Source: Deltaproteobacteria bacterium (lineage in GTDB: Bacteria > Desulfobacterota > Desulfobacteria > Desulfobacterales > JAFDCJ01). Taken from it: a DNA stretch of 43,688 bases. The notes beneath the pieces were generated by a model. It saw nothing but the letters and a program-made list of their open reading frames with translations. It did not search any database and was not told the DNA's origin. The stretch lies in contig JAFDCJ010000227.1 in NCBI GenBank assembly GCA_019312835.1, positions 1-43,688 on the forward strand. Reading direction: 5' to 3'. The translations under genes and the position numbers were made by a program. Position 1 is the stretch's first letter, and each line of letters opens with the position of its first letter. Of this stretch, positions 551 through 18,442 are shown in pieces.

Positions 551-640
551 GATAGCTCATAGCCTAGAGCTCATAGCTCAAAGTAAAATGGATTTTAATC
601 CTTTAGACTACCAGCTATCAGCTATGAGCTATGAGCTTCT
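551..640. repeat. Intergenic word palindrome, AGCTCAT/ATGAGCT type
   Basis: The gap between the acyl-CoA dehydrogenase and the CrtI-like gene is an imperfect palindrome. The left arm (about 551-595) repeats the word AGCTCATAG and the right arm (about 596-640) repeats its complement CTATGAGCT. An RNA copy could fold as a long stem with several registers. It may end or stabilise the upstream transcript; that is inference. Confidence 0.75.
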
Positions 641-1782
641 TATAGGCCCATGAACTTGGCCGCTATATTCTTCATCACCTCGTTCGTGCCCGCAAAAATC
701 GTCATGATCTTGGCATCGCGCCAGGCCCTGACGATCTTGCACTTCTCAAGGGTGCCGAAATTCCCGCATAGATCCAGGCAGCGGTTGGCCACGCGGTTCA
801 ACATCTCGGTGGTCCAGTATTTGGCCATGGATGTTTCAATGATGATATCTTTTTTTTCAACGTGATCCGCCACCAGTTTTTCGACAAAGGTTCGGCCCAG
901 CTTGACGTCGGTCGACAACTCCACCAGGGCAAACTGCACCGCCTGTGATTTTGAAAGGGGTTTTCCGGAAACAGTGGTCTGTTTGCAGTAATCGACGGTC
1001 CACTCCAGGATGCGCTCCGCGCCGGTAACCGCCATAATCGCGCATACCAGCCTTTCCTGCTGGAGCTTATCCATCAGCATCAAAAAACCCATGCCCTTTT
1101 CGCCCAGGCGGTTTTTCCGGGGGATACGGCATTTTGAAAAAAACAGCTCCGCAGTATCCTGGCTCCACATGCCCATCTTTTCCAGGTGGCGCCCGGTTGA
1201 AAATCCGGGGGTCTGGGTCTCAACCACGAAAAGCGAAAGGGCTTCATAGGGATTTTCGACGGCCGGGTCCTTGGCGGCCACCACAACCAGATCGGCATTC
1301 AAGCCGTTGGAAATAAAGGTCTTGGAGCCATCGATGACGACCTCTTCACCTTCCTCCACCGCCGTGGTGGCAATGCTCGCCAGGTCGCTGCCGGCACCCG
1401 GTTCGGTCATCGCCACCGCCGTCACAATATCACCCGATACGCAGCCGGGAAGATATTTTTTCTTGATTTCTTCTGAACCGAAGGAGGTGATATAAGGAAC
1501 CACGATGTCACTGTGCAGGGGGGTCGCCAGCCCGGTAATCCAGGTCTGGGTCATCTCTTCGGCTGCGATGAAAGCGTACAGAAAATCGCCCCCCATGCCG
1601 CCGTATTCGGCGGGGACATCCATGCACAAAAAGCCACCCTGCCCCATTTTCTGCCAGGCACTTTTGGGTACAATCCCGTCTTTTTCCCATTGATCACCGA
1701 AGGGTGTTATCTCCTTTTCCAGGAAGGCCCTCAACCGTTCTCGAAATTCGTTGTGATCCTTAGAATAATTTAAAATTTCCAT
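640..1782 (-). CDS. Acyl-CoA dehydrogenase (FAD-dependent, LCAD/IVD-type active site)
   Basis: 380 residues, the normal family size. It oxidises an acyl-CoA to the trans-2-enoyl-CoA and passes electrons to electron-transfer flavoprotein. Visible marks are the signature AMTEPGAGSD (residues 124-133), KTFISNG (164-170) and a C-terminal FAGTNEVMK. MCAD-type enzymes keep the catalytic Glu in a YEGT motif near the C-terminus, but here that motif reads FAGT. Instead a Glu sits in QQERLV (E243), where long-chain and isovaleryl-CoA dehydrogenases have theirs. This argues for a long-chain or branched substrate. An upstream in-frame ATG at 1881 would add 33 residues encoded by an intergenic repeat, so the start MEILNYSKDH at 1782 is preferred. 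The gene lies downstream of the thiolase and probably belongs to the same operon. Confidence 0.92.
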   Translation of the reverse strand: MEILNYSKDHNEFRERLRAFLEKEITPFGDQWEKDGIVPKSAWQKMGQGGFLCMDVPAEYGGMGGDFLYAFIAAEEMTQTWITGLATPLHSDIVVPYITSFGSEEIKKKYLPGCVSGDIVTAVAMTEPGAGSDLASIATTAVEEGEEVVIDGSKTFISNGLNADLVVVAAKDPAVENPYEALSLFVVETQTPGFSTGRHLEKMGMWSQDTAELFFSKCRIPRKNRLGEKGMGFLMLMDKLQQERLVCAIMAVTGAERILEWTVDYCKQTTVSGKPLSKSQAVQFALVELSTDVKLGRTFVEKLVADHVEKKDIIIETSMAKYWTTEMLNRVANRCLDLCGNFGTLEKCKIVRAWRDAKIMTIFAGTNEVMKNIAAKFMGL

Positions 1783-1824
1783 GTCTGGTAATCTCTTCGT
1801 TCGTGCGTTAGGATCGCTGCGCTT

Positions 1825-1915
1825 AAGGTTGGAGGTTGGAGGCAAAAAAGGATTGGATCTTTTTATATTCTGACACCTCATCCTCCAACCTCTAACCTCA
1901 AACCGCCAACCGCCG
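1825..1915. repeat. Intergenic word palindrome, GGTTGGA/TCCAACC type
   Basis: Between the thiolase and the acyl-CoA dehydrogenase, the left arm (1825-1842) is a tandem GGTTGGAGGTTGGAGG. The right arm (about 1880-1911) is the complementary series TCCAACC, CTAACC, AAACCG, CCAACC. The spacer is about 37 bases. The architecture matches that of the other gaps in this cluster, but the word is different. Confidence 0.7.
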
Positions 1916-1935: not shown

Positions 1936-3147
1936 TTATCCCTCGTACCTCCCTACTATGGCAATACTGCAAACGTTCATAGCGGGAAAGCCGCCCAGGT
2001 TATGGGTCAGACCGAATTTAGGATCTTCCAGCTGCCGCTCGCCGGCACGTCCATGAAACTGAAGATACATCTCGTAGAGCATTCTGAGACCCGAGGCGCC
2101 GATGGGGTGCCCGAAACATTTCAAGCCGCCGTCCACCTGGCAGGGAATTTTGCCGTCACGGTCGAAGACCCCATCCATCACGTCGCGCCAGGCTTCACCC
2201 CGCTCGGATAAATGCAAATCTTCCATCGTCACCAGTTCCGTAATGGAAAAGCAATCGTGCACTTCCATCATACTGATCTCCTCTTTGGGATCTTGGATGC
2301 CCGCCTCCTCGTAGGCTCTGGTGCTGCATTTGCTGGTGGTGACAAAATGATCGCCGTCCCAGTCGTTGTATCCCAATTCCTCGCCGCTGCTGAGCGCCAG
2401 CTGCAAGGCCTTGACGGTGATAAAATCCTTTTTACCCAGCTGTTTGGCCATCTCGGGTGTGGTGACAATGGCGCAGGCCGCGCCGTCGCTTACCCCGCAG
2501 CAGTCGAAAAGCCCCAGCGGATGGGCAATGATCGGGGCCGCCATAATCTGGTCCTCGCTGACGGCTTTGCGCAGATGGGCTTTGGGATTCAAGGCGCCAT
2601 TGGCATGGCTTTTGGCCGAGACATGGGCAATCGCCCGTTTGATGTCCTGATCGGTAATGTTGTATTTGGCGGTATATGCACTGGCAAGCTGGGCAAAAGC
2701 ACCGGGAGCCGTCATGTTGGGAAACCACTGCCACATCAGGCTGCCGGAATCCGATCCCGTAAAACTGGGCAGGCCGCCGTATCCGGTATCTTTGAGCTTT
2801 TCCACGCCCAGGGCCAGCGCAATATCATAGGCCCCGGAAGCCACCGCATAACAGGCACCGCGAAAGGCCTCGGTACCGGTGGCGCAAAAATTTTCAACCC
2901 GGGTAACCGGTATGTTGGGCAACCGCAGGGTAATTGAAAGCGGCAGGGCACTGCGACCCACATTGATGCTGTCAAAACAGGTTCCCAGCCAGGCCGCACC
3001 GATCTCTTTTTTTTCGATACCCGCATCCTCCAGGCACTCTTTAAAGGCCTCGACCATTAACTCTTCTGCCCCCATGTCCCAGCGCTCCCCGAATCGGGTG
3101 CAGCCCATACCGATGATTGCAACTTTATCTTTTATTCCTGTAGCCAT
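1936..3147 (-). CDS. SCP2-type thiolase / acetyl-CoA acetyltransferase-like protein
   Basis: 403 residues with the thiolase fold. It is expected to cleave a 3-oxoacyl-CoA with CoA or catalyse the reverse condensation. The likely nucleophile is Cys88 in VENFCATGTEAF. HDCF (297-300) and GHPIGASG (346-353) supply the active-site histidines, and Cys344 precedes the latter motif. These features place it with SCP-x and archaeal acetoacetyl-CoA thiolases rather than FadA-type enzymes. Members of this branch often need a DUF35 partner; here such a domain lies inside the gene just upstream (3306-6035). A GGAGG about eight bases before the ATG supports the start. The chain-length specificity is not visible. 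Confidence 0.9.
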   Translation of the reverse strand: MATGIKDKVAIIGMGCTRFGERWDMGAEELMVEAFKECLEDAGIEKKEIGAAWLGTCFDSINVGRSALPLSITLRLPNIPVTRVENFCATGTEAFRGACYAVASGAYDIALALGVEKLKDTGYGGLPSFTGSDSGSLMWQWFPNMTAPGAFAQLASAYTAKYNITDQDIKRAIAHVSAKSHANGALNPKAHLRKAVSEDQIMAAPIIAHPLGLFDCCGVSDGAACAIVTTPEMAKQLGKKDFITVKALQLALSSGEELGYNDWDGDHFVTTSKCSTRAYEEAGIQDPKEEISMMEVHDCFSITELVTMEDLHLSERGEAWRDVMDGVFDRDGKIPCQVDGGLKCFGHPIGASGLRMLYEMYLQFHGRAGERQLEDPKFGLTHNLGGFPAMNVCSIAIVGRYEG

Positions 3148-3305: not shown

Positions 3306-6035
3306 CTACCCTATTACGAAAAGTTTTTCCAGCAGCTGCGATTTCATCACATCGCCTCCGATCTGCAGCTTGCCGGAAGTGAAGGCCTGCATGGCCGGCA
3401 GCTTGCCGCCCATCATGGCCAGAAAGTCTGCTGCCGCCATTTTGATGGTGCAGGCGGGTTTTGCGTGGGTTCCCTTCGCAACCGTGCAGGCCGCATCTTT
3501 GATGATGCAATACCACTCGCCGCCGCCTTGGCCGGATATACTAAACTGGAAGACGACATCGACACCGGCAGCCGCCTCCGCTTTGAAGCTGCCCATCATT
3601 TTATCGAAAATCGCCTGCACGTCACTGCCTTGCTGGGAGGCAGTTTCCTCTGATTCTGCCGCTTCGGAGGGCGGCGCGATCAGGGCGAAAATGGCCGCGT
3701 TGGCGTCCTCCATTACCCTGGCACCGTCCATTGAATTGATTTTGTCCCAGTTTTCGTGGATCTGCTCCGGGGTGGGCGGATTGTCCGGATCCCCAAGCTG
3801 AACGGTGGGACCCGTATGGATGACGGCCCGGTTAAAATATCCCATGCCGCTGTTGAATATGGCCCCGGATTCGGCACAGTTCTCACCGCAAAGATACATC
3901 ACCATGGGAACGACAAACTCAGGTTTCGATTTTTCAAACAGATCCGGCGGCATGACATCTTCGGTCAGCCGTGATGCGGCGATGGGGGCAATCGTATTGA
4001 CTTTAATGTTGTATTTCTGGCCTTCCAGCTTGAGGGTATTCATCAAACCTACCAGCGCCATTTTGGCGGCTGAATAATTGCTCTGGCCGAAATTGCCGTA
4101 CAATCCGGCTGCCGATGTGGTCATGACGATCCGGCCGTAGCCGTTTTCTTTCATCGCGGCCATGGCCGGGCGGGTCACATGGTAGGCACCATTGAGATGC
4201 ACATCCATCACCGCCTTCCAGTTCTCCGGCTCCATCTTAATAAAGCTCTTGTCCCGTAGAATCCCGGCGTTGTTGATGACGATGTCGAGCCGACCGAAGG
4301 CGTCCAGGGCCGTCTTGACGATATTCTCACCGCCTTCGGGGGTGGCGACGTTGTCGTAATTGGCCACGGCTTCACCGCCCAGGGCCTTGATTTCATCTAC
4401 GACAGTGTCGGCCGGCGACGCCGATCCTTTGCCGGAGCCGTCTCGGGCACCGCCCAGATCGTTGACCACGACCTTGGCGCCCCGCCTGGCCAGTTCCAGG
4501 GCATAGGCCTTTCCAAGACCGGCACCGGCACCGGTGACTACCGCCACGCGGTCATCAAAGCGGATCATATCCTTTTCCGCTGCTGCTCCGGGTATTGGCA
4601 CGGCTTTCCAGAAATAGTTTACAAATCCGCGCTCCCTGTCAACCCCTTTGCGCTTGAAGCCCATTTTGACGGGCAGACCGACCCTGACGTCATCGAGTTC
4701 ACAATCGGTAAAATCCAGCACCGCCCGGCCGCCGCCTTCAAACTGTACCATGCCGTAGATGGCCGGCGGATCGACCGATACCGAAAGCAGGTCGCCGGTA
4801 AAGGTTTTGACCCGGGCGGGAACATCGGCAAATTCGTAATCCTCCTGGCTGTGAAACGCACCGCATTCCGGATTGACACAGATATCGGCTTTGGGAAACT
4901 GGGGGGTGCCGCATTCGGTGCATTTACCCCCAACCAGTCCCAAAATCATTTTATTCTTGCGCCATAAAACCGAGGTGGCGGTCTGGGTCGGGGCCTCGGC
5001 CCGGATCCCCATTTCGGTTTTGATCAGATCCCTGAATTTGAGCCATTTGAAATAATTGTCCGTTGTCTTTTTATTGGCCAGTGATCCGGCAACCCCGTTT
5101 CTGGCGGCCAGTTTGGTGATATTGTCCGTGACCTCGAAATACAGTGCATTGGCGCCCTGACCGAAACCGCACATCAGAATTCGATCCCCGGGCTGAGCCT
5201 CTTCCAGGGCGCTGATAAACATCATAAATGAATGAGCCGCACCGGTCTCGCCGCAGACCTCATGCATGTTGTCCACCAGCTTTTCCGAGGTCGCTCCCAG
5301 CCCGGCGGCGATATTGCGGTGGTCGCGTTTAAAAAAGCAGGGGTAAACCAGCCGATCGACATCATCCATGCCGATTCCCAACTTGTTAAACAGGCCGTTG
5401 ACGACCCGGGGAATAATCTCGGCATATCCGGCATCTCTGGTCCAGCGCTCTTCCCAGACATAGTCGTATTTTTTATCGGCGCCGCGGTAGTGATCGACAA
5501 AATCCATGGATAACGAATAGGAGCCTTTGTATTCGGCGATCACATCGTCATCGCCCACGGTTAAGGCGGCTGCCCCGTCACCGAACCACATTTCATAGAA
5601 ATAGGCCGTTTTGGTTTCCCGGCTGTCGCTGGCCGTCACCATAATATTGTGCCGCTGTCCGCTCTGGATCGACTCGAGCGCCGTTATGAGCGCAGTGGTG
5701 GCCGCCTTCTGGGAAGCGGTGTGGTCGGCGGTGATCATCTCATCTCTGAGGTTGAGGGCGGCCGACACGATTCCGGCGTTCTGGCGATCTGCAAACGGCA
5801 GGGTCGTCGAAGCCAGGTACAGGGCGTCCAGCTGGCTTTTATCCCGGCCGCGCAGACAGTCACGCGAAGCCTCCACCGCCATGGTGATCGCGTCTTCATC
5901 CCAGTTGCACATGGATCGCTCGCCCTGCGCCACCATCATAATGGCAGGCGCAAACCAGCCCATCCCTTGAAAGATGGCCATACGGTCCAGTCTCAACCGC
6001 GGAATATAAGCACCGTAGGAAGTAATTCCGATCAT
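3306..6035 (-). CDS. Four-domain fusion: HMG-CoA-synthase-like + DUF35 Zn/OB + SDR + SCP2
   Basis: 909 residues from MIGITSYGAY. AAGGAG lies eight bases before this ATG and too close to the ATG two codons upstream. Residues 1-340 are a thiolase-fold domain of the HMG-CoA synthase/KAS III type. Residues 365-480 are a DUF35 domain with zinc-ribbon cysteines C372, C375, C386 and C391 and an OB fold. Residues 488-790 are an MFE-2-type short-chain dehydrogenase with TGAGAGLG (501-508), NNAG (588-591), N615, S641, Y654 and K658. Residues 805-905 are an SCP2 sterol-carrier domain. The likely job of the SDR is (3R)-3-hydroxyacyl-CoA oxidation, with SCP2 carrying the acyl chain. In the first domain the position of the catalytic Cys appears to be Gln109 (codon 5709-5711), so condensing activity is doubtful. 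The SDR-SCP2 half is a close paralogue of that in the next gene upstream. I know of no standard protein with this order. Confidence 0.85.
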   Translation of the reverse strand: MIGITSYGAYIPRLRLDRMAIFQGMGWFAPAIMMVAQGERSMCNWDEDAITMAVEASRDCLRGRDKSQLDALYLASTTLPFADRQNAGIVSAALNLRDEMITADHTASQKAATTALITALESIQSGQRHNIMVTASDSRETKTAYFYEMWFGDGAAALTVGDDDVIAEYKGSYSLSMDFVDHYRGADKKYDYVWEERWTRDAGYAEIIPRVVNGLFNKLGIGMDDVDRLVYPCFFKRDHRNIAAGLGATSEKLVDNMHEVCGETGAAHSFMMFISALEEAQPGDRILMCGFGQGANALYFEVTDNITKLAARNGVAGSLANKKTTDNYFKWLKFRDLIKTEMGIRAEAPTQTATSVLWRKNKMILGLVGGKCTECGTPQFPKADICVNPECGAFHSQEDYEFADVPARVKTFTGDLLSVSVDPPAIYGMVQFEGGGRAVLDFTDCELDDVRVGLPVKMGFKRKGVDRERGFVNYFWKAVPIPGAAAEKDMIRFDDRVAVVTGAGAGLGKAYALELARRGAKVVVNDLGGARDGSGKGSASPADTVVDEIKALGGEAVANYDNVATPEGGENIVKTALDAFGRLDIVINNAGILRDKSFIKMEPENWKAVMDVHLNGAYHVTRPAMAAMKENGYGRIVMTTSAAGLYGNFGQSNYSAAKMALVGLMNTLKLEGQKYNIKVNTIAPIAASRLTEDVMPPDLFEKSKPEFVVPMVMYLCGENCAESGAIFNSGMGYFNRAVIHTGPTVQLGDPDNPPTPEQIHENWDKINSMDGARVMEDANAAIFALIAPPSEAAESEETASQQGSDVQAIFDKMMGSFKAEAAAGVDVVFQFSISGQGGGEWYCIIKDAACTVAKGTHAKPACTIKMAAADFLAMMGGKLPAMQAFTSGKLQIGGDVMKSQLLEKLFVIG

Positions 6036-6069
6036 CTTCATTTCTCCTTTATAAATTGGGTTAGAGCTC

Positions 6070-6150
6070 ATAGGTGATGGGTGATAGGTGGCGGATTAAT
6101 TTCTTTCACCTATTACCCATTACCTCTCACCCATTACCTTTTATCTATTC
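6070..6150. repeat. Intergenic word palindrome, ATAGGTGATGGGTG/CACCTATTACCC type
   Basis: This lies between the two fusion genes. The left arm (6070-6092) repeats GGTGAT/GGTGATAGG and the right arm (6105-6139) repeats CACCTATTACC and CACCCATTACC. The spacer is about 12 bases, giving one of the most convincing hairpins of the series. Confidence 0.75.
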
Positions 6151-8255
6151 CATTTGAACACCTTTTCGATCAACTGCGACTTCATGATGTCACCCTCGAT
6201 TTTGAGCTTGCCCGAGGTGTAAGCCTGCATGGCCGGCAGTTTCCCGTTCATCATGTCCAGAAAATCGGCCGCATCCATTTTCAAGGTGCAATTCGGTTTT
6301 GCGTGTGAACCCGAAGTCACCCGGCAGGTTTGATCTTTAATCACGCTGTGCCAGTCGCCGCCCCCTTCACCGGAAATGATGTACTGAAAGACAACGTCCA
6401 CCCCCGAGGCCGCATCGGCCACGAAAGCTGCGGGCATCGCGTCGAAAACGTCTGTCGCCGAACCGAACCCCGCGGTTTCTCCGGTCGAGGCTGCGGCCGG
6501 TTTCGAAAAGGCCGCCAGCAGATCTCCGATTTGCTCGGTGACATCCTGATATTCTCTGGCCCCTTGCAGAGATGTTATCTTTTCCCATTCGGCCACCAGC
6601 TGTTCCGGAGCTGGCACGCTTTGGCCGTCGCCCACCACTGCGCCGGGCCCGGTCACCATGGCCACCCGGTTGAAGCATCCCAGCCCGGCGTTGTAAATAT
6701 TTCCGCTGGCGGTGCAGACCTCGGACACCAGATACAGGGCCATGGGGGTTACCAGCTCCGGTTTCAGCTTGTCCAGAAAGTCCGGCGGCAAAATATCCTC
6801 GGTCAACCGGGAGGCTGCCACCGGCGCGATGGTGTTGACGTTGATGCTGTACTTGCGCCCTTCCAGCTTCAGGGTGTTCATCAGTCCCACCAGACCCATT
6901 TTGGCGGCGGTATAGTTGGTCTGGCCGAAATTGCCGTACAAACCCGCCGCCGATGTGGTCATCAAGATGCGACCGTACCCCTTTTCTTTCATCACCGCAA
7001 ACGCCGGACGCGACACGTTGTAGGCACCGTTGAGATGGACATCCAAAACCCCGGCCCAATTTTCGGGCTCCATTTTCAAAAAGCTCTTGTCCCGCAGAAT
7101 CCCGGCATTGTTGATGAGAATATCCACCGTCCCGAATGCATCCAGGGCCGTTTTGACGATGTTCGCGCCGCCATCGACCGTGGCCACATTGTCATAATTG
7201 GCCACCGCCTCACCCCCCAGGGCCTTGATTTCGTCGACCACCTTATCCGCCGGTGCCTGGGAGCCGTCTCCGGACCCGTCCCGGGCGCCCCCCAGATCGT
7301 TGACCACGACCTTGGCGCCGCGTTTGGCCAGCTCCAGGGCGTAGGTGCGGCCCAGCCCGGCACCGGCACCGGTGACAATGGCCACGCGGCCGTCAAAACG
7401 GATCTCCGTTTTGGGAATGTCGCCGTATTCGAACACGCCGTTGTCGATGACCACTTCCTTGGTTTCGGTATTGATGACCTTCCAGACGGCCCGGCCTTCA
7501 TCGGTTTTCCAGATGACGATCCTAACGGGCATGCCGGGATACAGGGGTCTTTTAAAGCGGCAGTCCATGCGCCGGGCCTTTTCCGGTTCACCGGGGATAA
7601 AGGTCTGGATCAGAGAACGGCAGGCGTAACCATGGGTGCACAGCCCGTGCATGATGGGTTTTTCAAACCCGGCCATTTCCGCAAATTCCTGATCGACATG
7701 CAGCTGAAACACATCCCCTGAAAGCCGGTAAATCAGGGGCTGGTCTGCGGAAGGACTTGCGTCGACCACGAAGTCCGGATCCCGGTCCGGGAAAGCGACC
7801 TCTTTCGCCGGGGCGTTTTCGCCGCCAAAGCCGCCGTCCAGGCGGGCGAAAACCGTCACGATGCTGGTGAACAATTTCTGGCCGTTGGAATGGGAGGTCT
7901 CGAATTCGCCCACAATCAACGCCCCCTTGTCCTTGCCCTTGTCGTAGTAGTGCTTGATGGCCCCCTCGGTGATCATGGCCCCCTCAGGCGGGATCGGATT
8001 GTGAAAGATGAGCTCCTGCTCTCCATGAAGGATCCCGGCCAGGTTGACATTGCTGGTGGTGGCCACCTCGGCCATAAAATCGTAGATCGTGGTGATGCCG
8101 AAGCTGGGAATGACCTTCAGATCTTTTTCATAACAGTACTCCAGATCGGAAAAGCCTGCACCAACACCAAGTGCATAAAGGACGGCATCCTTCCAGGTGT
8201 AGTCCTTCGTAAACGGGCCGATCTTCTTGCCGACCGCATCAAGATTGAGCGCCAT
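6141..8255 (-). CDS. MaoC-type enoyl-CoA hydratase 2 + SDR + SCP2 fusion (MFE-2-like)
   Basis: 704 residues. Residues 1-280 form a double hot-dog MaoC/hydratase-2 unit that should hydrate trans-2-enoyl-CoA to (3R)-hydroxyacyl-CoA. The catalytic dyad is visible in YRLSGDVFQLHVD as D181 and H186, although the usual Asn-Pro before Leu-His is Phe-Gln. Residues 285-590 are an MFE-2-type SDR with TGAGAGLG (295-302), NNAG (382-385), S435, Y448 and K452, expected to oxidise the hydroxy product with NAD. Residues 600-700 are an SCP2 domain. Eukaryotic MFE-2 has the order SDR-hydratase-SCP2; here the hydratase comes first. It is probably the first enzyme gene after the TetR regulator. AGGA lies about nine bases before the ATG. 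Confidence 0.9.
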   Translation of the reverse strand: MALNLDAVGKKIGPFTKDYTWKDAVLYALGVGAGFSDLEYCYEKDLKVIPSFGITTIYDFMAEVATTSNVNLAGILHGEQELIFHNPIPPEGAMITEGAIKHYYDKGKDKGALIVGEFETSHSNGQKLFTSIVTVFARLDGGFGGENAPAKEVAFPDRDPDFVVDASPSADQPLIYRLSGDVFQLHVDQEFAEMAGFEKPIMHGLCTHGYACRSLIQTFIPGEPEKARRMDCRFKRPLYPGMPVRIVIWKTDEGRAVWKVINTETKEVVIDNGVFEYGDIPKTEIRFDGRVAIVTGAGAGLGRTYALELAKRGAKVVVNDLGGARDGSGDGSQAPADKVVDEIKALGGEAVANYDNVATVDGGANIVKTALDAFGTVDILINNAGILRDKSFLKMEPENWAGVLDVHLNGAYNVSRPAFAVMKEKGYGRILMTTSAAGLYGNFGQTNYTAAKMGLVGLMNTLKLEGRKYSINVNTIAPVAASRLTEDILPPDFLDKLKPELVTPMALYLVSEVCTASGNIYNAGLGCFNRVAMVTGPGAVVGDGQSVPAPEQLVAEWEKITSLQGAREYQDVTEQIGDLLAAFSKPAAASTGETAGFGSATDVFDAMPAAFVADAASGVDVVFQYIISGEGGGDWHSVIKDQTCRVTSGSHAKPNCTLKMDAADFLDMMNGKLPAMQAYTSGKLKIEGDIMKSQLIEKVFKWNR

Positions 8256-8457: not shown

Positions 8458-9087
8458 TCAACTCTTTTCAGCCGTGAAGGCCGGAACAAGGATAAATTTA
8501 AGCGTCTCCTTGACCACCTGGATATATTCATCCCGGTTGGTATCCAGCAGCGGCCGGAAAAAATTTTCGCCCGAGATAAAATTCAGCACCGTATTCCAAA
8601 CGGCCAAAATGCGGGCCTTCGCCTCGGTCGAAACCGATTCTCTGTTCTTCGAAAGCCCCATGGCAACGGCAATATTGGAAATGTGCTTTGACATTCCGAT
8701 GTCCAGGGTGACACCATGCTGGGTCTTGTTGAAATATCCGAACAGAATCAGGTTTGAGACTTCGGGATGGGAAAAAAGGTAGTCCGACATCATGTCGATG
8801 GCCAGTTCAAGACGGGTTGCCAGGGATTGCCCGCTGACTCTTTTTTCAACTTCGTTTAATTTGTTCTGGATCTCTGCGCTGATTTCAGCCAGAACCGCCT
8901 CGTACAAATCCTGCTTTTCGCCCCAGTGATAGTAAAGCGTTGATATGTCGATTCCCACATCTCCGGCAATCATCCGGGTGGTGGTATCGTTGTACCCGTA
9001 TTCGCCAAAAAGTTTCCGGGCTGAGCTCAGAATTTTGGCCTTCATTGAATTGGGATCTTTACGGGCCTTTTCCAGGCGTGAAGGCAT
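8458..9087 (-). CDS. TetR/AcrR-family transcriptional regulator
   Basis: 209 residues, the usual TetR size. The N-terminal helix-turn-helix is visible at about residues 16-65 (ARKLFGEYGYNDTTTRMIA, then GIDISTLYYHWGEKQDLYEAV), followed by an all-helical ligand-binding half of no recognised specificity. AAGGAGG seven bases before the ATG fixes the start. It is the first gene of the minus-strand acyl-CoA cluster, so it may repress its own operon in response to an acyl-CoA. Regulators of fatty-acid degradation in related bacteria are often of this family. A small palindrome at 9108-9122 could be its operator. Confidence 0.92.
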   Translation of the reverse strand: MPSRLEKARKDPNSMKAKILSSARKLFGEYGYNDTTTRMIAGDVGIDISTLYYHWGEKQDLYEAVLAEISAEIQNKLNEVEKRVSGQSLATRLELAIDMMSDYLFSHPEVSNLILFGYFNKTQHGVTLDIGMSKHISNIAVAMGLSKNRESVSTEAKARILAVWNTVLNFISGENFFRPLLDTNRDEYIQVVKETLKFILVPAFTAEKS

Positions 9088-9608: not shown

Positions 9609-10466
9609 TCAATGCTTCTCCGGCACCAGCAACTCACTCAACAGGCTATCCCGGGGATGTTTATCCAGCTGAAGGGAGTAATACCGGGCCAACGCTTCGG
9701 TCATGATTTTACCGGTTTCGCTGTCTGCAAACAACTCCATACCGTAGCGCACATCCTTGGCGCCATTTCCCAGGCTGAAGGCGTGCCCGGTATAATCACC
9801 TTCCAGGGCCGGCGGAACCATTTTTTGCAGGGTGCCGGAATTTGCCGCTCCCCGGGAAAGTATCGCATATAACGTGCGCGGATCGATGTCTGCGCGAGCG
9901 GCTGCCTGTATGGCTTCAACTACCAGAGCGACCTGGCCCATGGTGATAAAGTTGTTCAGCAATTTGACCTGCAGAGCCGAGCCGACTGGGCCGATGCGGA
10001 CAACCGATTCCGAGTAGCAGGCAATCAGCGGGCGGGCTTCTTCATAAACGGACTGATCCGCGCCGACAAATGAGACCAGCCGGCCGGCTTCGGCGTCTTT
10101 GGGGCCGCGGGTCACCGGCGCATCCATAAAATCGACCTTAAATTTTTCGAGGCGACGATGAAGTTTTATGGCTGTCTGTGGTTTGGATGTCGTGCAATCT
10201 ATCCAGAGTAAATTTTTATCCAGGTGGGGTTCGGCACGGTTTACCACTGCTTCGATCTGCTCGGCGGTGCCCACACAGGAAACTACTGCCTCGGCTCCCG
10301 CAAGCAGTTCACCGTAGCCTTTCGCCTCGGCGGCCCCATGCCGGACCAGTCTTTCAATGTTTTCGCGCTTGCGATTGGCAATCACCCGCAGCGAATGGCC
10401 CGCTTTCAGGAGGTTGGAGGCGATTCCGTATCCCATAAAACCGGCCCCAATGAATCCAATCTGCAT
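9609..10466 (-). CDS. 3-hydroxyisobutyrate-dehydrogenase-family NAD(P) oxidoreductase (possible L-threonate/tetronate dehydrogenase)
   Basis: 285 residues. The N-terminal GFIGAGFMGYGIASNLLKAG is the dinucleotide-binding signature of beta-hydroxyacid dehydrogenases. DAPVTRGPKDAEAG (about 115-128) is the substrate-binding motif, and the catalytic Lys is expected in KLLNNFITMGQ. The family oxidises the hydroxyl group of small hydroxy acids. Position downstream of a PdxA-type gene and a TRAP transporter fits the four-carbon sugar-acid pathways, where LtnD (L-threonate 2-dehydrogenase) belongs to this family. That assignment is inference; tartronate semialdehyde reductase is an alternative. It is the last gene of the minus-strand operon. 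Confidence 0.8.
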   Translation of the reverse strand: MQIGFIGAGFMGYGIASNLLKAGHSLRVIANRKRENIERLVRHGAAEAKGYGELLAGAEAVVSCVGTAEQIEAVVNRAEPHLDKNLLWIDCTTSKPQTAIKLHRRLEKFKVDFMDAPVTRGPKDAEAGRLVSFVGADQSVYEEARPLIACYSESVVRIGPVGSALQVKLLNNFITMGQVALVVEAIQAAARADIDPRTLYAILSRGAANSGTLQKMVPPALEGDYTGHAFSLGNGAKDVRYGMELFADSETGKIMTEALARYYSLQLDKHPRDSLLSELLVPEKH

Positions 10467-10584
10467 GAAAGGTTTCCTTTTTCAAACACTGCAAGACACT
10501 ATCATTGCAGTGGCGGCGGTCTGGAATTCAGGGAAACATTAGCAACCCACATATTGCCTTTTATCAACTCTGGTGGCGCGGTAT

Positions 10585-11604
10585 TTATCTCGCCGACTCC
10601 AGGCGGTGCTGCAGCCCCATGCGGCAGGCCAGATCGAAAGCGTGATGCATCGCTGAAACATTGGCCGTTCCCTTGCCCATGATGTCGAAAGCCGTGCCGT
10701 GGGCCGGCGTGGCAATGGGGATGGGCACCCCTCCGAGAACCGTGACACCGCGATCAAAGCCGGCCAACTTCATCGCTATTTGGCCCTGATCGTGATACAT
10801 GGTCACAATAGCATCGTATTCGCCGGACAATCCCTTCAAAAAGATGGTGTCGGCCGGAAAGGGACCGTCGACCTGAATGCCTTTATTTCGAGCCTTTTCG
10901 ACCGCCGGTGCGATGATGTCAATTTCTTCATGGCCGAAGTTGCCACCGTCACCCCCATGCGGGTTGAGAGCTGCCACCCCGATGCGCGGAGCTTCAACCG
11001 CAGCCCGTTTCAGAGATCTGCAAACAAGGTCAATGGAAGCGATGATCCGCTCTTCGGTTATCAGGGAACTAACATCCTTAAGCGCCACATGCGAAGTAAC
11101 ACGTGCTGTCCATAACTCTTTGAGCACGTTAAGTTCGCAGAAGTAGCTATCATATCCAACGCGATGGGCACACCAGTGCAGTTCGTCACTTTCGGTCATA
11201 CCCGCAAGATGCATGGCTTCCTTGTTAAGAGGGGCAAAACAAACGGCATCCGCCTGGGCGTTGAGCGCCAGATCCAAAGCCATTTGCATGGTTTCCAGGC
11301 TATAGCGTCCGCCTTCGGCGGTGGCTTGAGCGTCGGTGAACCGCCCTTTGACCGGACTGTGATAATCGAATAATACGGGTCGATCGTCTGAAAAATCCGC
11401 GTCATCGAAATTGGCGACCTCGCTGGCTGCAACGCGAACGCCAGCAATCCGCTGTCCTTTTAAAAACTCGTCTTTATCGGCAATTAAAAATAAATTGGCC
11501 TGCTGGGATATATCCTTTATCGCCAATAGCTTGGCAACCAGCTCCGGCCCAATGCCTGACGGGTCCCCCATCAGTAGAGCAATCGTAGGCTTGTCAATCG
11601 TCAA
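10585..11604 (-). CDS. PdxA-family 4-phospho-hydroxyacid dehydrogenase (PdxA2-like)
   Basis: 339 residues. It has the GDPSGIGPE motif (13-21) and the three metal-binding histidines of the PdxA family: H172 in TSHVALKD, H216 in NPHGGDGG and H271 in YHDQGQ. GTAFDIMGKG follows near 303. PdxA oxidises 4-phosphohydroxy-threonine in vitamin B6 synthesis; the PdxA2 branch oxidises and decarboxylates D-threonate or D-erythronate 4-phosphate to dihydroxyacetone phosphate. Linkage to a TRAP transporter and sugar-acid genes favours the catabolic role. The start codon is TTG (11602-11604) with GGGAG nine bases upstream, 24 bases after the dctM stop; no in-frame ATG competes nearby. No DUF1537 kinase, its usual partner, is present in the window. 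Confidence 0.85.
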   Translation of the reverse strand: MTIDKPTIALLMGDPSGIGPELVAKLLAIKDISQQANLFLIADKDEFLKGQRIAGVRVAASEVANFDDADFSDDRPVLFDYHSPVKGRFTDAQATAEGGRYSLETMQMALDLALNAQADAVCFAPLNKEAMHLAGMTESDELHWCAHRVGYDSYFCELNVLKELWTARVTSHVALKDVSSLITEERIIASIDLVCRSLKRAAVEAPRIGVAALNPHGGDGGNFGHEEIDIIAPAVEKARNKGIQVDGPFPADTIFLKGLSGEYDAIVTMYHDQGQIAMKLAGFDRGVTVLGGVPIPIATPAHGTAFDIMGKGTANVSAMHHAFDLACRMGLQHRLESAR

Positions 11605-11628
11605 TCTCGCGATCTCCCATATGCAGAA

Positions 11629-12912
11629 TCATTTGTAGAAAAAATCAACCAGTGTCAGCGATATGGCCGGCACGTAGGTGACCATCAAAAGTATACCCAG
11701 CAACACAGCTATGAATGGAATGTTGACCTTGGTGGTTTCCCAGATATCGGTTTTGGCAATCGAACAGGAAGTGACCAACACGCTGGCGACCGGCGGCGTT
11801 TGCTGCCCAACGGCGATATTGAGCGTCATGATCAGGCCGAACTGAATGGGATCTATACCGATTTGATGGATCAGGGGCATGACGATCGGCACCACCAGAA
11901 TGATGGCCGCCGCGCCGTGCAAAAACATTCCGATCACAAACAACCCGCAGTTCAATAACGCTAAAACCGCATACTTGTTGTTGGTGAGTTCCATAACCCA
12001 GCGCGCAAAATTCTGAGGCAGCTGGATCTCGGTCAGATACAGACCCAGCACGGCTGAAGTTGCAACCAATAGCATCACCACGGCGGTTTGCATGACCCCT
12101 TCGATCATCGCCTTGCGCAGATGCTTCCAGCTCAGCTCCCGGTAGATAGCCCCGCCGATAACCAGAGCGGCCACCACGGCCAACCCGGCACCTTCCGTGG
12201 CGGTTACAATCCCGCCAAAAATGCCCCCCAGGATAATCACAGGCAACAGCAGGGCCCATCCGGCTTCCTTGAAAGCCTTCCACAACCGGCCGAGATCAAA
12301 GGCTTCCTCCCGGGGCAAATCGTGGCGTACGGCATACCAGTAACACAGTGCCATCATGGCCAGACCGCCCAGTACACCCGGAACCACGCCGGCAACGAAC
12401 AGTTGCACGATCGAGGCATCGGCCAGGGCCCCGTATATAATCATGGCTATCGAGGGTGGAATAATGATAGCGATGGAAGCCGAGGACGAGGTCACCGCTG
12501 CTGCCAAACGGGCGGTGTAGTTGCGGCGCACCATCGCCGGAATGAGCACGGAACCGATGGCAGCCACATCGGCCACGGCCGACCCTGAAATTTCTGCAAA
12601 AAACATCGAAACGCCGACATTCACCATAGCCAGACCGCCCCTTACAAATCCGATTAAGGCTGATGTCAGATTGATCAGACGCCGTGAAATGCTGGTGGTA
12701 TTCATCAGAGCGCCGGCCAGGATAAACAGGGGAATGGCCAGCAGCGGAAAATTCGTAGCACCATCGAACATGGTCAGGGCGGCATTAAATACACTGTCGA
12801 ATCCGCGCGATATTATCATGCCGACAACGGCAACGACACCGAGGCCAACTGCAATGGGCACGTTGATCATTACGAGTATAAACAGCCCGATAACAACGAG
12901 TGTGATCGTCAT
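11629..12912 (-). CDS. TRAP transporter large permease subunit (DctM family)
   Basis: 427 residues, almost entirely hydrophobic, the typical length and 12-14 helix profile of DctM subunits. Recognisable pieces are AEISGSAVADVAAIGSVLIPAM (about 109-130), a conserved DctM region, and IGMFLHGAAAIILVVPIVMP. It forms the sodium-driven transport channel in the inner membrane together with DctQ. It overlaps dctQ by four bases (ATGA), implying translational coupling. The substrate is set by DctP; context suggests a small sugar acid. Confidence 0.93.
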   Translation of the reverse strand: MTITLVVIGLFILVMINVPIAVGLGVVAVVGMIISRGFDSVFNAALTMFDGATNFPLLAIPLFILAGALMNTTSISRRLINLTSALIGFVRGGLAMVNVGVSMFFAEISGSAVADVAAIGSVLIPAMVRRNYTARLAAAVTSSSASIAIIIPPSIAMIIYGALADASIVQLFVAGVVPGVLGGLAMMALCYWYAVRHDLPREEAFDLGRLWKAFKEAGWALLLPVIILGGIFGGIVTATEGAGLAVVAALVIGGAIYRELSWKHLRKAMIEGVMQTAVVMLLVATSAVLGLYLTEIQLPQNFARWVMELTNNKYAVLALLNCGLFVIGMFLHGAAAIILVVPIVMPLIHQIGIDPIQFGLIMTLNIAVGQQTPPVASVLVTSCSIAKTDIWETTKVNIPFIAVLLGILLMVTYVPAISLTLVDFFYK

Positions 12913-13442
12913 GATGATTGCCTCGCTTCCTCGATTGCGTCTTCTATCGCCTCTTTTTCAAAATCGGTTCCTGCCATGGCCTTGCGCCAGGCATCGGGAA
13001 TACTGAGAACTTCGGCAACAATAAAGAGAGCGGACCCGACGGGAATGACTGATTGGGTGAAGCTAAGCGGCACCCAAGGCAGGCTGATGAGCGACTCCTC
13101 ACCAAAAACTCCCAGCAAATACCAGCCGGCCCAACCGATCAACACAAAAAAACCGATCACAAACCCCTCGGCGAGGAAAAAAGCCGTGGAACGCACCTTG
13201 GGGGGTAAGGCCAGAAAAAGTCCGGCAAAACCCAAATGTCCCCGTTTCAGCGCCGCCAGCGCAGCGCCGTAATAGGTTAACCAGGCAAGCTGGACCGAAG
13301 CCACTTCGTCATACCAGACCAGCGAAGATCCTGAGAATCGGAATATGACGGCCACAACGACCACCAACGCCAGGCTGATCAATAGAATGATCGAAACGAT
13401 TTCAAGAAGCCACTCAAACAAACGGTTCAGCGCGCTTATCAT
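12909..13442 (-). CDS. TRAP transporter small permease subunit (DctQ family)
   Basis: 177 residues from MISALNRLFEW, with four predicted membrane helices (about 10-35, 45-65, 85-115 and 125-150) and the DctQ-typical VWYDEVASVQLAWLTYYG segment. An upstream in-frame ATG at 13493 would add 17 polar residues unlike the family N-terminus and has no properly spaced ribosome site, so the inner start is chosen. Neither start has a strong Shine-Dalgarno. The gene ends inside the dctM start. It is separated from dctP by about 180 bases holding two hairpins. Confidence 0.88.
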   Translation of the reverse strand: MISALNRLFEWLLEIVSIILLISLALVVVVAVIFRFSGSSLVWYDEVASVQLAWLTYYGAALAALKRGHLGFAGLFLALPPKVRSTAFFLAEGFVIGFFVLIGWAGWYLLGVFGEESLISLPWVPLSFTQSVIPVGSALFIVAEVLSIPDAWRKAMAGTDFEKEAIEDAIEEARQSS

Positions 13443-13514
13443 AATGTTTTGCCTGTAAAGGGAATTAACACCTGCACTTTTGCCGCAATCCATGCCTCGG
13501 GTAAGCTAGGGATA

Positions 13515-13549
13515 TACACCTGTGTTCATGACTGGTCATGACAGGTGTA
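13515..13549 (-). other. Hairpin in the dctP-dctQ gap
   Basis: TACACCTGTG and TCATGAC on the left are mirrored by GTCATGA and CAGGTGTA on the right around a two-base loop, with one small bulge. It precedes dctQ, so it may protect the 5' end of the dctQM message or reduce its translation. The role is inferred. Confidence 0.5.
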
Positions 13550-13574
13550 AAATTCAGGCAGCAAAAAGCAAAGT

Positions 13575-13610
13575 GCTGCCGGCCCTGCATTTCAAAGCGG
13601 GTCCGGCAGC
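13575..13610 (-). terminator. Hairpin after dctP, likely attenuating terminator
   Basis: The ends GCTGCCGG and CCGGCAGC pair exactly, with a partly paired interior. On the minus strand the stem is followed by a T-rich stretch, and it starts 13 bases past the dctP stop. Such a partial terminator would give more binding protein than permease, as is common in TRAP and ABC operons. Confidence 0.55.
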
Positions 13611-13623
13611 GGAGATATCACAT

Positions 13624-14595
13624 TTAGTCTGCCAATTGTAGCGCCATATCTATCATCTGTTTGCCGGTAGCAACCTCTTTGGCAAATTCCTCGTAAATGG
13701 GTTTGCTGGCCTCTACAAAAGCTGCGCGATTGGCATTGTTGATTTCCATGCTGCCCTGCAGCCTGCTGATCAGGTCCAGATCTCCCTGGGCTCCCATAGC
13801 GTACATCCAGCCCTGCACATCGCGTGCTGTTTTTTCGAGAATTTCCCTGACGTCCGCCGGCAGCTTGTTCCACTGATTGGCACCCGTGGTGAGGTATGAC
13901 GGCGTGTAGACGTGACCGGTGATGGAGAGGTATTTTTGCACTTCGTTGAGCTTGGCGGCGGAGATGTTAGTCAGCGGATTTTCCTGCCCATCTATGACGC
14001 CGGTCTGCAAGCCGACAAATACTTCAGAAAACGACATCGGGGTTGGGTTGGCACCCCAGGCGGTAAACATTTTAATGCGCCAGGTACTCTTGGGGGTTCT
14101 GATTTTAACACCATTAAGATCGGCCGGGGTGTTGATAGGTTGAACATTATTGGTGATGTGCCGGATGCCATTTTCCCAGAATCCTATTACCTTGTATCCC
14201 TTTTTCTCGATGGCAGGCGCAATCATTGGCCAGAAAATAGTGTGTTCGATGCGGTTTAGGTGGGCGCGGTCCTTGACCAGAAAGGGCATGTCAAACAGAC
14301 CGGCCTCTCCGGCGATTGAAGACATGATGGAAGAAGGCATGGACAGATGCACCGTGCCAAGCTTGAGCTTTTGCATCAGATCCTTGTCTTTGCCCAGTTG
14401 AGCTGCACCGTAGAAAGTAACCTTGCCTTTATCACCGAGCAGATCATTGGCCCGGCGAGTGAACTCTTCAGCCGTGATATACTGGGTTGAACCCGGTGCG
14501 GCACTGATAGCGAAGACGATTTCAGTTTGGGCCATCGCATTGGAGATGAATACAACCGACATGGCTAGCACAGCAAGAAAAGAAACTTTTTTCAT
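13624..14595 (-). CDS. TRAP transporter solute-binding protein (DctP family)
   Basis: 323 residues. A signal peptide is clear: MKK, a hydrophobic core and ANAMA-like cleavage before QTEIVFAIS at about residue 23. The mature part has the DctP pattern, including GVKIRTPKS (about 162-170), where the Arg normally salt-bridges the substrate carboxylate, and SFSEVFVGLQTGVIDGQENP near 188-207. This periplasmic protein captures an organic acid for DctQM. GAGGAGG six bases before the ATG is a strong ribosome site. It is the promoter-proximal gene of the minus operon, facing the divergent GntR regulator, which probably controls it. Confidence 0.93.
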   Translation of the reverse strand: MKKVSFLAVLAMSVVFISNAMAQTEIVFAISAAPGSTQYITAEEFTRRANDLLGDKGKVTFYGAAQLGKDKDLMQKLKLGTVHLSMPSSIMSSIAGEAGLFDMPFLVKDRAHLNRIEHTIFWPMIAPAIEKKGYKVIGFWENGIRHITNNVQPINTPADLNGVKIRTPKSTWRIKMFTAWGANPTPMSFSEVFVGLQTGVIDGQENPLTNISAAKLNEVQKYLSITGHVYTPSYLTTGANQWNKLPADVREILEKTARDVQGWMYAMGAQGDLDLISRLQGSMEINNANRAAFVEASKPIYEEFAKEVATGKQMIDMALQLAD

Positions 14596-14921
14596 AACTA
14601 CCTCCTCGAGTTGTAGATTGCATGCAATTTTTAAAGACTTGACTAAATTAGGCTATTGCACTATTAAAAGCTATCTAAAAATCTAAAAAATTGCATTAAA
14701 TTGTATTCAATTTTGTTATATCATCAAATTTTTATTGTCAACCCTTTTATGCGTTTTTTTTGAATATATATAACTAATTGAATTATTTAGATATTAATAA
14801 CTGACTTATTAGACGAAAAAACTTTTTGATTTTTTTAATCTGAAAATATATTTGATTTTTGCATGCAATTAGTTTATGCAAACGTTGAGGGTATGCCGTG
14901 AAACCAAATGGATGAGCTAAG
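14596..14921. promoter_or_regulatory. Divergent AT-rich promoter region with ATTGCATGCAAT operators
   Basis: This 326-base gap separates dctP and gntR. A perfect 12-bp palindrome ATTGCATGCAAT is at 14617-14628, next to dctP. TTGCATGCAA occurs at 14859-14868, next to gntR, and a near match ATTGTATTCAAT is at 14700-14711. A half-site TTATGCAAA follows at about 14874. The middle is extremely AT-rich, as expected for divergent promoters. FCD-type GntR proteins bind short palindromes of this kind, so the regulator at 14922 is the obvious candidate. The pairing is inferred. Confidence 0.6.
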
Positions 14922-15674
14922 ATGACCACATCAAACACCATATCGAAATCGCTGGAAGATGAAAATTCCGCGGATCATTTCCATCCGAAAGGGACCAGGG
15001 AAAACACCGTTCAGCCCTTGGCGCAACAGGTTGCCGCCCGAATTCGTGACATGATCATCCAGGATCTGCTGACACCCGGTGAATGGATTCGCGAACAGGC
15101 GCTGGCAGACAAATTGAGTGTCTCGCGCACACCACTGCGCGAGGCCCTTAAGATGCTGGAGCTCGACGGTCTCATCCGGTTATTGCCCAATCGCGGCGCC
15201 GTGCTAATGGAGTTGACCGTTGAAGAAGTCAAAGAAAAACTGGAGGTGTTGGCGGTGCTGGAAGCCCTGGCCGGCAAACTGGCCTGTCAGAAAGCAACGG
15301 ACGCAGAACTGGCAGAAGTCAAGGCGTTGCATTATGAAATGCTGGCATGGTTCAGCCGAAAGAATCGGCTGGAATATTTCAAGCTCAATCAACGTATCCA
15401 TCTGGCTATTGTTGCGGCAAGCGGCAACCAAACCCTGATCGAAACCCACGGTCGGATCAATGCCCAGCTATATCGTGTGCGTTATCAGTCGAATCTGCAA
15501 AACGAATTGTGGGGCACGGCAGTCGACGAGCATGAGGAGATGGTAGCAGCGCTGGAAGCGCGCAGCAGCGAGGAACTGTCCAAATGCATGCTAAACCATC
15601 TTGGCCAAACCTTTTCTAAATTCAGCAAAAATCTGGAACTCAAAGAAAAGGACATACCCCCTAAAGAATTTTAA
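14922..15674 (+). CDS. GntR-family transcriptional regulator, FCD type
   Basis: 250 residues. The winged helix-turn-helix lies at about residues 32-98, with GEWIREQALADKLSVSRTPL and REALKMLELDGLI as the recognition region. A helical FCD effector domain follows at about 105-230, with LEVLAVLEALAGKLA and metal-ligand-like positions NQRIHLAIV and DEHEEMVAAL. FCD regulators sense small organic acids. It is divergent from the TRAP operon and leads the plus-strand dehydrogenase-kinase-aldolase genes, so it probably represses or induces both. The N-terminal 30 residues are longer than usual and polar. Confidence 0.9.
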   Translation: MTTSNTISKSLEDENSADHFHPKGTRENTVQPLAQQVAARIRDMIIQDLLTPGEWIREQALADKLSVSRTPLREALKMLELDGLIRLLPNRGAVLMELTVEEVKEKLEVLAVLEALAGKLACQKATDAELAEVKALHYEMLAWFSRKNRLEYFKLNQRIHLAIVAASGNQTLIETHGRINAQLYRVRYQSNLQNELWGTAVDEHEEMVAALEARSSEELSKCMLNHLGQTFSKFSKNLELKEKDIPPKEF

Positions 15675-15826
15675 ATGCATGAATTGCCCTTCCATTGGAA
15701 TTGATGTTTAGCAATATCATATGGGTAGAAACGACACGACAGACCATGCCCATCCAGGGAAGATATGGCATTCAGGCACTAGCGAGAATGTTTAGTTTGC
15801 CGGCTTGGCCGGGTTAGGTAATCAAT

Positions 15827-16912
15827 ATGCTGAAAATAGTTGGCGTTGGTGATCCGGTTATTACAGCGGACACCATGCAGGAAATCTTCCGGCAACAAGA
15901 TCGCCTTAGGGGCGAATTTCAAAAAATTACATGGGGTGTCACTGATCAATCCCAGTTGCAACACCAGCGCAGCCTCTATGAAGCAAACGGCCCGGAGGCC
16001 GTCCCCGTTCCGGGACACATCCTGCAACAGGGTGCCGCAGCGCAGATCCTGTTGGTGCATTTTGCACCGGTATCCGCGCAAATCATCGCGGGTCTGCCGG
16101 AGCTGAAAATTATCGGTGTCGCCCGCGCCGGAGTTGAAAATATCGATGTTGAGGCCGCCGATCAAAGAGGGGTTCTGGTCTTCAACGTAACCGGCCGCAA
16201 TGCCGAAGCGGTATCAGATTTCACCGTCGGACTGATACTGGCCGAATCTCGCAACATCGCCCGGTCCCACGTGGCCCTGCTTCGGGGAAAATGGCGCAAA
16301 GAGTTTGTTAACACTTCCTACTGCGGAGTGCTGCTGGACAAAACGGTCGGCCTTGTGGGCTACGGCCGAATCGGCCGGCTGGTGGCACGTAAACTCAAAG
16401 GGTTTGGTGTGAGTATCGTTGTTTATGACCCTTACACGCCTGCGAGCACGATTCTTGAAGACGGCTGCGAGCCGATCGGCGTTGGTGAGCTATTTAGACA
16501 AAGCGACTTCATCTCGCTTCACGCCCGATTAACCGCTGAAACCAAACAATTTATCAACGCCGAACTCATCGCAGAAATGAAATCTTCCGCCTATTTCATC
16601 AACACGGCACGCGCCGGTCTGGTGGATCATCGTGCGCTCATCACTGCGCTCACAGAAAAGCGCATCGGAGGAGCCGCGCTTGATGTATTCGAGCTTGAGC
16701 CTTTGCCTCCGGGCAGCCCGCTGTTGGAACTTGACAACGTCACGCTGACTTCTCATCTGGCTGGCGTCACCCAGGACACGTACCGCCTTTCGATGGAACT
16801 TCTTTATAAAAATCTGGCTGACTTCCTTGAAAAAGGCCGGCAAGATAACCTGATAAACCCCTCTGCAGCCGATCAGCATGACCTGCAGGATTGGCTGGCA
16901 GCGCAAAGATGA
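15827..16912 (+). CDS. D-isomer-specific 2-hydroxyacid dehydrogenase
   Basis: 361 residues. The NAD-binding motif GYGRIG is at 178-183, with an acidic D201 after the second strand, which favours NAD over NADP. The catalytic set is R262 (NTARAGLVD), E291 (ELEPLPPGSP) and H310 (TSHLAG). The family interconverts 2-hydroxy and 2-keto acids; D-3-phosphoglycerate, glyoxylate/hydroxypyruvate and D-erythronate enzymes all belong here. In this locus an action on a sugar acid or its phosphate is likely but not provable. Its stop overlaps the start of the kinase gene (ATGA). Confidence 0.88.
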   Translation: MLKIVGVGDPVITADTMQEIFRQQDRLRGEFQKITWGVTDQSQLQHQRSLYEANGPEAVPVPGHILQQGAAAQILLVHFAPVSAQIIAGLPELKIIGVARAGVENIDVEAADQRGVLVFNVTGRNAEAVSDFTVGLILAESRNIARSHVALLRGKWRKEFVNTSYCGVLLDKTVGLVGYGRIGRLVARKLKGFGVSIVVYDPYTPASTILEDGCEPIGVGELFRQSDFISLHARLTAETKQFINAELIAEMKSSAYFINTARAGLVDHRALITALTEKRIGGAALDVFELEPLPPGSPLLELDNVTLTSHLAGVTQDTYRLSMELLYKNLADFLEKGRQDNLINPSAADQHDLQDWLAAQR

Positions 16913-18429: not shown

Positions 18430-18442
18430 TTGGAGGAAAGCA

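Follow-up and report, generated by a model that had tools for sequence, protein, structure and literature searches.

The window is a contig of 43,688 nucleotides (JAFDCJ010000227.1) from a member of the Desulfobacterales (assembly GCA_019312835.1). Its minus strand encodes a protein that joins a domain resembling HMG-CoA synthase (HMGCS) to a DUF35 domain, an SDR, and an SCP2 domain (positions 3306–6071). The frame is uninterrupted from 6071 down to 3306. Its first ATG gives a protein of 921 amino acids, while the ATG at 6035, which is the start used by relatives, gives 909. Residue numbers in this text are those of the 909-residue version, except that the ranges of Pfam and NCBIfam matches are those of the 921-residue version. 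These matches are to the HMGCS-like models PRK04262 and TIGR00748 (residues 12–352), zf-ChsH2 (379–405), OB_ChsH2_C (431–472), adh_short (508–697), and SCP2 (831–918); zf-ChsH2 and OB_ChsH2_C score only near the Pfam cut-offs. The SCP2 domain is of the lipid-carrier type (3309–3626, minus strand; PF02036, 6.5e-17). All four domains fold in AF2 (mean pLDDT 82.2 and pTM 0.62 for a single chain, with 57 family sequences), and the low-confidence stretches include the linkers at residues 341–348 and 790–803. Thus the continuous 909-residue frame with four domains, which had first been proposed from the DNA letters, was recovered by a profile search of the full protein as well as by structure prediction. 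We also noticed an in-frame ATG directly before the SDR part (window 4440–4680, minus strand), which is present in 27 other fused loci as well (from a DNA-based list). We did not find a clear ribosome-binding site at this ATG. It may be an internal start, or the leftover start codon of an SDR-SCP2 gene that formerly stood by itself.

The fusion gene lies in an operon. Just upstream is a 704-residue protein (6141–8255, minus strand; Pfam) with a MaoC-type hydratase 2, another SDR, and SCP2, which is a permuted form of the peroxisomal protein MFE-2. Hereafter, SDR-A is the SDR of the fusion and SDR-B is the SDR of the MaoC protein. At the head of the operon is a TetR-family regulator (8458–9087, minus strand; Pfam), whose position is kept in relatives. 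Downstream of the fusion are an SCPx-type thiolase (1936–3147, minus strand) and an acyl-CoA dehydrogenase (640–1881, minus strand; Pfam). This order (TetR, MaoC-SDR-SCP2, fusion, thiolase, acyl-CoA dehydrogenase) is typical. The MaoC-SDR-SCP2 protein is upstream of the fusion in 52 of 52 cases, and the thiolase is the next gene in all 50 of the fused loci with enough contig downstream, so the gene set in the original prediction holds up well beyond this window.

Two relatives have extra neighbors: in Desulfosarcina alkanivorans there is an AMP-binding acyl-CoA ligase, and in D. widdelii there is a class III CoA-transferase. We tried to deduce the substrate from these and gave this up, as they are too unspecific. 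Also, the window's own genome separately encodes dehydrogenases of the FadB type (3HCDH), which rules out the idea that SDR-A is the cell's only hydroxyacyl-CoA dehydrogenase. Elsewhere in the window (9609–19132) are a TRAP transporter (DctP, DctQ, and DctM), a PdxA-like dehydrogenase, a 3-hydroxyisobutyrate-dehydrogenase-like protein, a GntR regulator, a 2-hydroxyacid dehydrogenase, an FGGY kinase, and an aldolase of the DeoC/LacD type. This looks like a sugar-acid catabolic cluster.

The first domain of the fusion (5016–6035, minus strand) has the HMGCS/KAS III fold according to the profiles, AF2, and Foldseek, which matched it to the archaeal HMGCS 6ESQ_I (TM 0.91 by target), PhlA (0.87), and MucA (0.86–0.88). 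It also aligns with 6ESQ_I and PhlA in sequence, but it does not have the catalytic triad. In the alignment with the archaeal enzyme, the motifs SESHP (with the catalytic Glu), FACKAG (Cys), and FHQPN (His) become STTLP, ASQKAA, and VYPCF in the window's protein, so that Thr77 (5805–5807), Gln109 (5709–5711), and Pro232 (5340–5342, all minus strand) stand at the Glu, Cys, and His positions. Across 81 sequences of the fused form and its near group, the Glu position is always Thr; the Cys position is Gln in 48, Leu in 27, Met in 2, Ile in 2, Glu in 1, Val in 1, and never Cys; and the His position is Pro in 80 and Ala in 1. The original prediction had called this domain a condensing enzyme. Because the triad is gone in 81 of 81 sequences while the thiolase next door keeps its catalytic residues in 60 of 60, we conclude that the N-terminal half does not function as a condensing enzyme, and we will refer to its HMGCS-fold domain as a pseudo-HMGCS. 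PhlA is similar: it lacks the Cys and the Glu as well (these are Gly115 and Cys83), and PhlC is the sole catalytic subunit of PhlABC (PMC6392133). The genomic context does not fit HMG-CoA synthase either. A profile search of the window's own genome (which is 93% complete) found no HMG-CoA reductase above the cut-off, and the non-mevalonate enzyme GcpE is present. Together with the loss of the triad, this rules out a role in the mevalonate pathway.

The DUF35 domain (4596–4979, minus strand) comprises a Cys4 zinc ribbon (Cys372, Cys375, Cys386, and Cys391), which is invariant in 81 of 81 relatives, and an OB fold. In a search of the PDB, this region matched the DUF35 chain of the archaeal complex (6ESQ_E) and PhlB. 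DUF35 proteins hold thiolase-type complexes together (PMC12329534), and the adjacent thiolase is the presumed partner. This thiolase scores 711.7 bits against PRK06157 (the cut-off is 403), and its Cys88 and its HDCF and KCFGHP motifs are invariant (60/60). Its solved relatives include 6ESQ_A from the archaeal complex (E = 7e-53), BbsB (7PXP), and PhlC, and it is nearer to acetoacetyl-CoA and SCP2 thiolases than to PhlC. The closest solved relatives of the N-terminal half of the fusion (PhlA, the 6ESQ HMGCS, and MucA) are all subunits of thiolase-type complexes. Most likely, the N-terminal half scaffolds the thiolase.

Alternatively, the HMGCS-fold domain could be an enzyme that was re-purposed by acquiring new catalytic residues. 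For example, it could be a retro-aldolase or a thioester lyase, given that Sal and Ltp2, which are thiolase-fold enzymes with DUF35 partners, are documented cases of re-purposing (PMC12329534). There are candidate residues near the old active site: in the fused proteins and their near relatives, Cys233 and His268 are conserved in 81 of 81 sequences, and residue 263 is Glu in 75 and Asp in 6. But the sister short forms vary. L023 and L024 have Val at the old catalytic Glu position; Cys233 is lost in L030 and L032; and His268 is lost in L026–L029 and in L032, yet the thiolase still adjoins. Furthermore, PhlA, the closest solved relative, is non-catalytic (PMC6392133). So we consider a new activity for this domain to be unlikely.

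The original prediction also raised the concern that the fusion might come from a frameshift or an assembly join at the DUF35-SDR junction. This was not borne out, as the same architecture recurs in many genomes. Among 117 genomes drawn evenly across the class, 31 encode a fused frame of 745–951 amino acids, with one copy per genome, as do 5 of 7 congeners (2 of these 5 frames end at a contig edge). Among the best 80 loci in named genomes, 62 have the SDR in the same frame; of these, 49 are complete with SCP2, 7 are complete without SCP2, and 6 are ended by the contig edge. The fusion loci are from Desulfobacterales, Syntrophales, Desulfomonile, and unclassified deltaproteobacterial bins, and they include the complete chromosomes of the cultured bacteria Desulfosarcina alkanivorans PL12 and D. 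widdelii PP31. Because the same long frame is found in independent genomes, including finished chromosomes, the fusion cannot be an assembly join.

The pseudo-HMGCS and DUF35 domains also occur together without the SDR. Unfused proteins of this kind (about 490 amino acids, with a thiolase as neighbor) occur widely in this class; those in the same taxonomic order are 33–52% identical, and closer ones (about 60% identity) are found in Nitrospirae and Chloroflexi bins. The thiolase adjoins the unfused form in all 13 of the intact short relatives among loci L023–L038 and, by script, in 11 of 13 among L039–L118, with one more that overlaps. So it was too narrow to regard condensing enzymes and DUF35 proteins as separate, interacting partners. 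The domain order was also thought to be undescribed, and this is right as far as the literature goes: our searches, which covered openly licensed papers and may miss subscription ones, found no paper that describes it. The architecture itself, on the other hand, is common in the genomes of Desulfobacterota. All of the parts are known, and the combination is a variant of the thiolase/HMGCS-fold/DUF35 complexes that we did not find in the literature.

Some relatives have other layouts. In a MAG chromosome (L040:9461-17461), the pseudo-HMGCS-DUF35 part lies in a frame of 611 amino acids, and neither an SDR nor a thiolase was detected after it; this is either a rearrangement or an assembly fault. 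Two distant relatives with 37–39% identity (G143:C76:43816-45231 and G114:C2:8079-9488) have frames of 679 and 587 amino acids and may be other fusions.

SDR-A (3792–4562, minus strand; adh_short) is an MFE-2-type (3R)-hydroxyacyl-CoA dehydrogenase of about 300 residues with an intact Ser641-Tyr654-Lys658. It is 54% identical to the corresponding enzyme of rat MFE-2 (1GZ6) over 295 columns, with a TM of 0.86 from Foldseek. The catalytic residues of the SDRs are invariant (63/63 for SDR-A and 57/57 for the second set). Within a genome, SDR-A and SDR-B are on average 75.5% identical, as compared to 71.9% for SDR-As and 72.4% for SDR-Bs from different genomes. In a tree of the SDRs, the A and B copies from one genome are strongly supported sisters in several cases (L086, L103, L071, and L079), and the strongly supported branches require at least 8 changes of the A/B label, which contradicts a single origin of SDR-A that is cleanly separate from SDR-B. 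This pattern suggests that SDR-A and SDR-B repeatedly exchange sequence within genomes, as two halves of one functional unit might, but repeated duplication would give a similar tree. The two arms have remained distinct in the lineage of the window itself, where they are 69% identical over the SDR-SCP2 stretch.

The SCP2 domains are less constant. Among 42 complete operons, 28 have SCP2 in both proteins, 8 have it only in the fusion, 6 have it only in the MaoC protein, and none lack it altogether. We dropped the idea that each operon needs at least one SCP2 domain, as about 1.1 operons without any would be expected by chance. As for the hydratase, the hydratase-2 motif GDxNPLH reads GDVFQLH in the MaoC protein (window 7692–7730, minus strand; residues 176–188 of the protein at 6141–8255). 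Among the relatives, the Asp and the His are kept in 58 of 58 and the Asn is replaced by Phe in 57 of 58. Because of this replacement, the activity of the predicted hydratase is less than certain.

Gene adjacency alone is insufficient to prove that there is a complex. Perhaps the operon is just a loose gene set, and the fusion arose by read-through of two neighboring genes that are not functionally coupled. The in-frame ATG before the SDR in many relatives does look as if a stop had been lost before a separate SDR-SCP2 gene, and 14 of 42 operons lack SCP2 in one protein or the other. But it seems improbable that uncoupled domains would be retained in one frame in numerous families, even where the proteins are only about 62% identical, with all of the SDR active-site residues kept and the thiolase always next. 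Even less plausible is a working condensing enzyme in a chain-building assembly line: although the fold and the family models match well and the enzymes are largely reversible in principle, no member that we examined has kept the Glu, the Cys, or the His, and HMG-CoA reductase was not found above the cut-off in this genome. The thiolase by itself might still drive the cycle in reverse.

We propose instead that the fusion is both the scaffold and the third-step enzyme of a complex for R-specific beta-oxidation (or its reverse), with the thiolase docked by the pseudo-HMGCS and DUF35 domains. We think that this is probably correct. The pseudo-HMGCS and the fused DUF35 would take the role of PhlA and PhlB: they would dock the separately encoded thiolase and wall the acyl-CoA cavity, and the HMGCS-fold domain would no longer catalyze condensation. 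The C-terminal SDR would oxidize (3R)-3-hydroxyacyl-CoA, and the 3-ketoacyl-CoA so formed would be cleaved by the docked thiolase, while the SCP2 domain may hold or deliver a hydrophobic acyl-CoA. The MaoC-SDR-SCP2 protein encoded upstream would add the (R)-hydratase as well as another copy of the SDR-SCP2 arm. The SDRs of MFE-2 are dimers, so the SDR-A and SDR-B arms probably pair, which would bring the hydratase to the thiolase. With hydratase 2 upstream and acyl-CoA dehydrogenase downstream, all four steps of R-specific beta-oxidation are present, and the conservation of this gene set supports the original prediction of an assembly for beta-oxidation or its reverse. Given that the cell also has FadB-type proteins, the operon would be a second, specialized route. 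More speculatively, the whole beta-oxidation spiral might be built on the scaffold of a dead condensing enzyme, with the thiolase on the pseudo-HMGCS and DUF35, the hydratase attached via paired, gene-converted SDR-SCP2 arms, and the dead cavity as the route by which CoA moves between the dehydrogenase, the carrier, and the thiolase. We are doubtful about this extended version.

How does this compare to known systems? The PhlABC acyltransferase of Pseudomonas protegens (5M3K and 5MG5; a relative is 9SKH) has an HMGCS-fold subunit, a DUF35 bridge, and a thiolase-type catalytic subunit. Its sequence hallmarks are found here: an HMGCS fold without the Cys and the Glu, a DUF35 with zinc ribbon and OB fold, and an adjacent thiolase with its catalytic Cys. 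However, in our system a single chain combines the PhlA- and PhlB-like parts and continues into SDR and SCP2, the thiolase is closer to other thiolases than to PhlC, and we saw no natural-product genes near the fusion. PhlABC is a heterododecamer that transfers an acyl group to a phenol. MucABC from Streptococcus macacae (9VBO and 9VBT) likewise combines an HMGCS-fold subunit with a thiolase-type catalytic subunit. The archaeal thiolase/HMGCS complex (6ESQ) has the same three protein folds, but its HMGCS is active, so that two active enzymes share a CoA site; the fusion has lost the triad, and its genome has no signature of the mevalonate pathway. The benzoylsuccinyl-CoA thiolase BbsAB (7PXP) and the steroid aldolases Sal/Shy and Ltp2/ChsH2 pair a thiolase-fold enzyme with a DUF35 partner, and in Shy and ChsH2 the DUF35 forms a fusion with another beta-oxidation enzyme, as it does here. 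But these systems have no HMGCS-like part, and the fusion partners of our DUF35 are a pseudo-HMGCS and a dehydrogenase, not a hydratase. Finally, peroxisomal MFE-2 (HSD17B4) shares the (3R)-hydroxyacyl-CoA dehydrogenase, hydratase 2, and SCP2. Its order is SDR-hydratase-SCP2 and its hydratase motif is GDxNPLH. Here the order is MaoC-SDR-SCP2, the motif is GDxFxLH, and another SDR-SCP2 unit belongs to the proposed thiolase scaffold.

The fusion brings together MFE-2 enzymes of the peroxisomal type and the thiolase architecture of PhlABC and the archaeal complex. It also offers a single-operon system for probing substrate channeling in DUF35 complexes, which has been named as an open question (PMC12329534). 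More broadly, a family of proteins from sulfate reducers and syntrophs that matches models of HMG-CoA synthase is probably a thiolase scaffold, and recognizing this would correct metabolic reconstructions of these bacteria.
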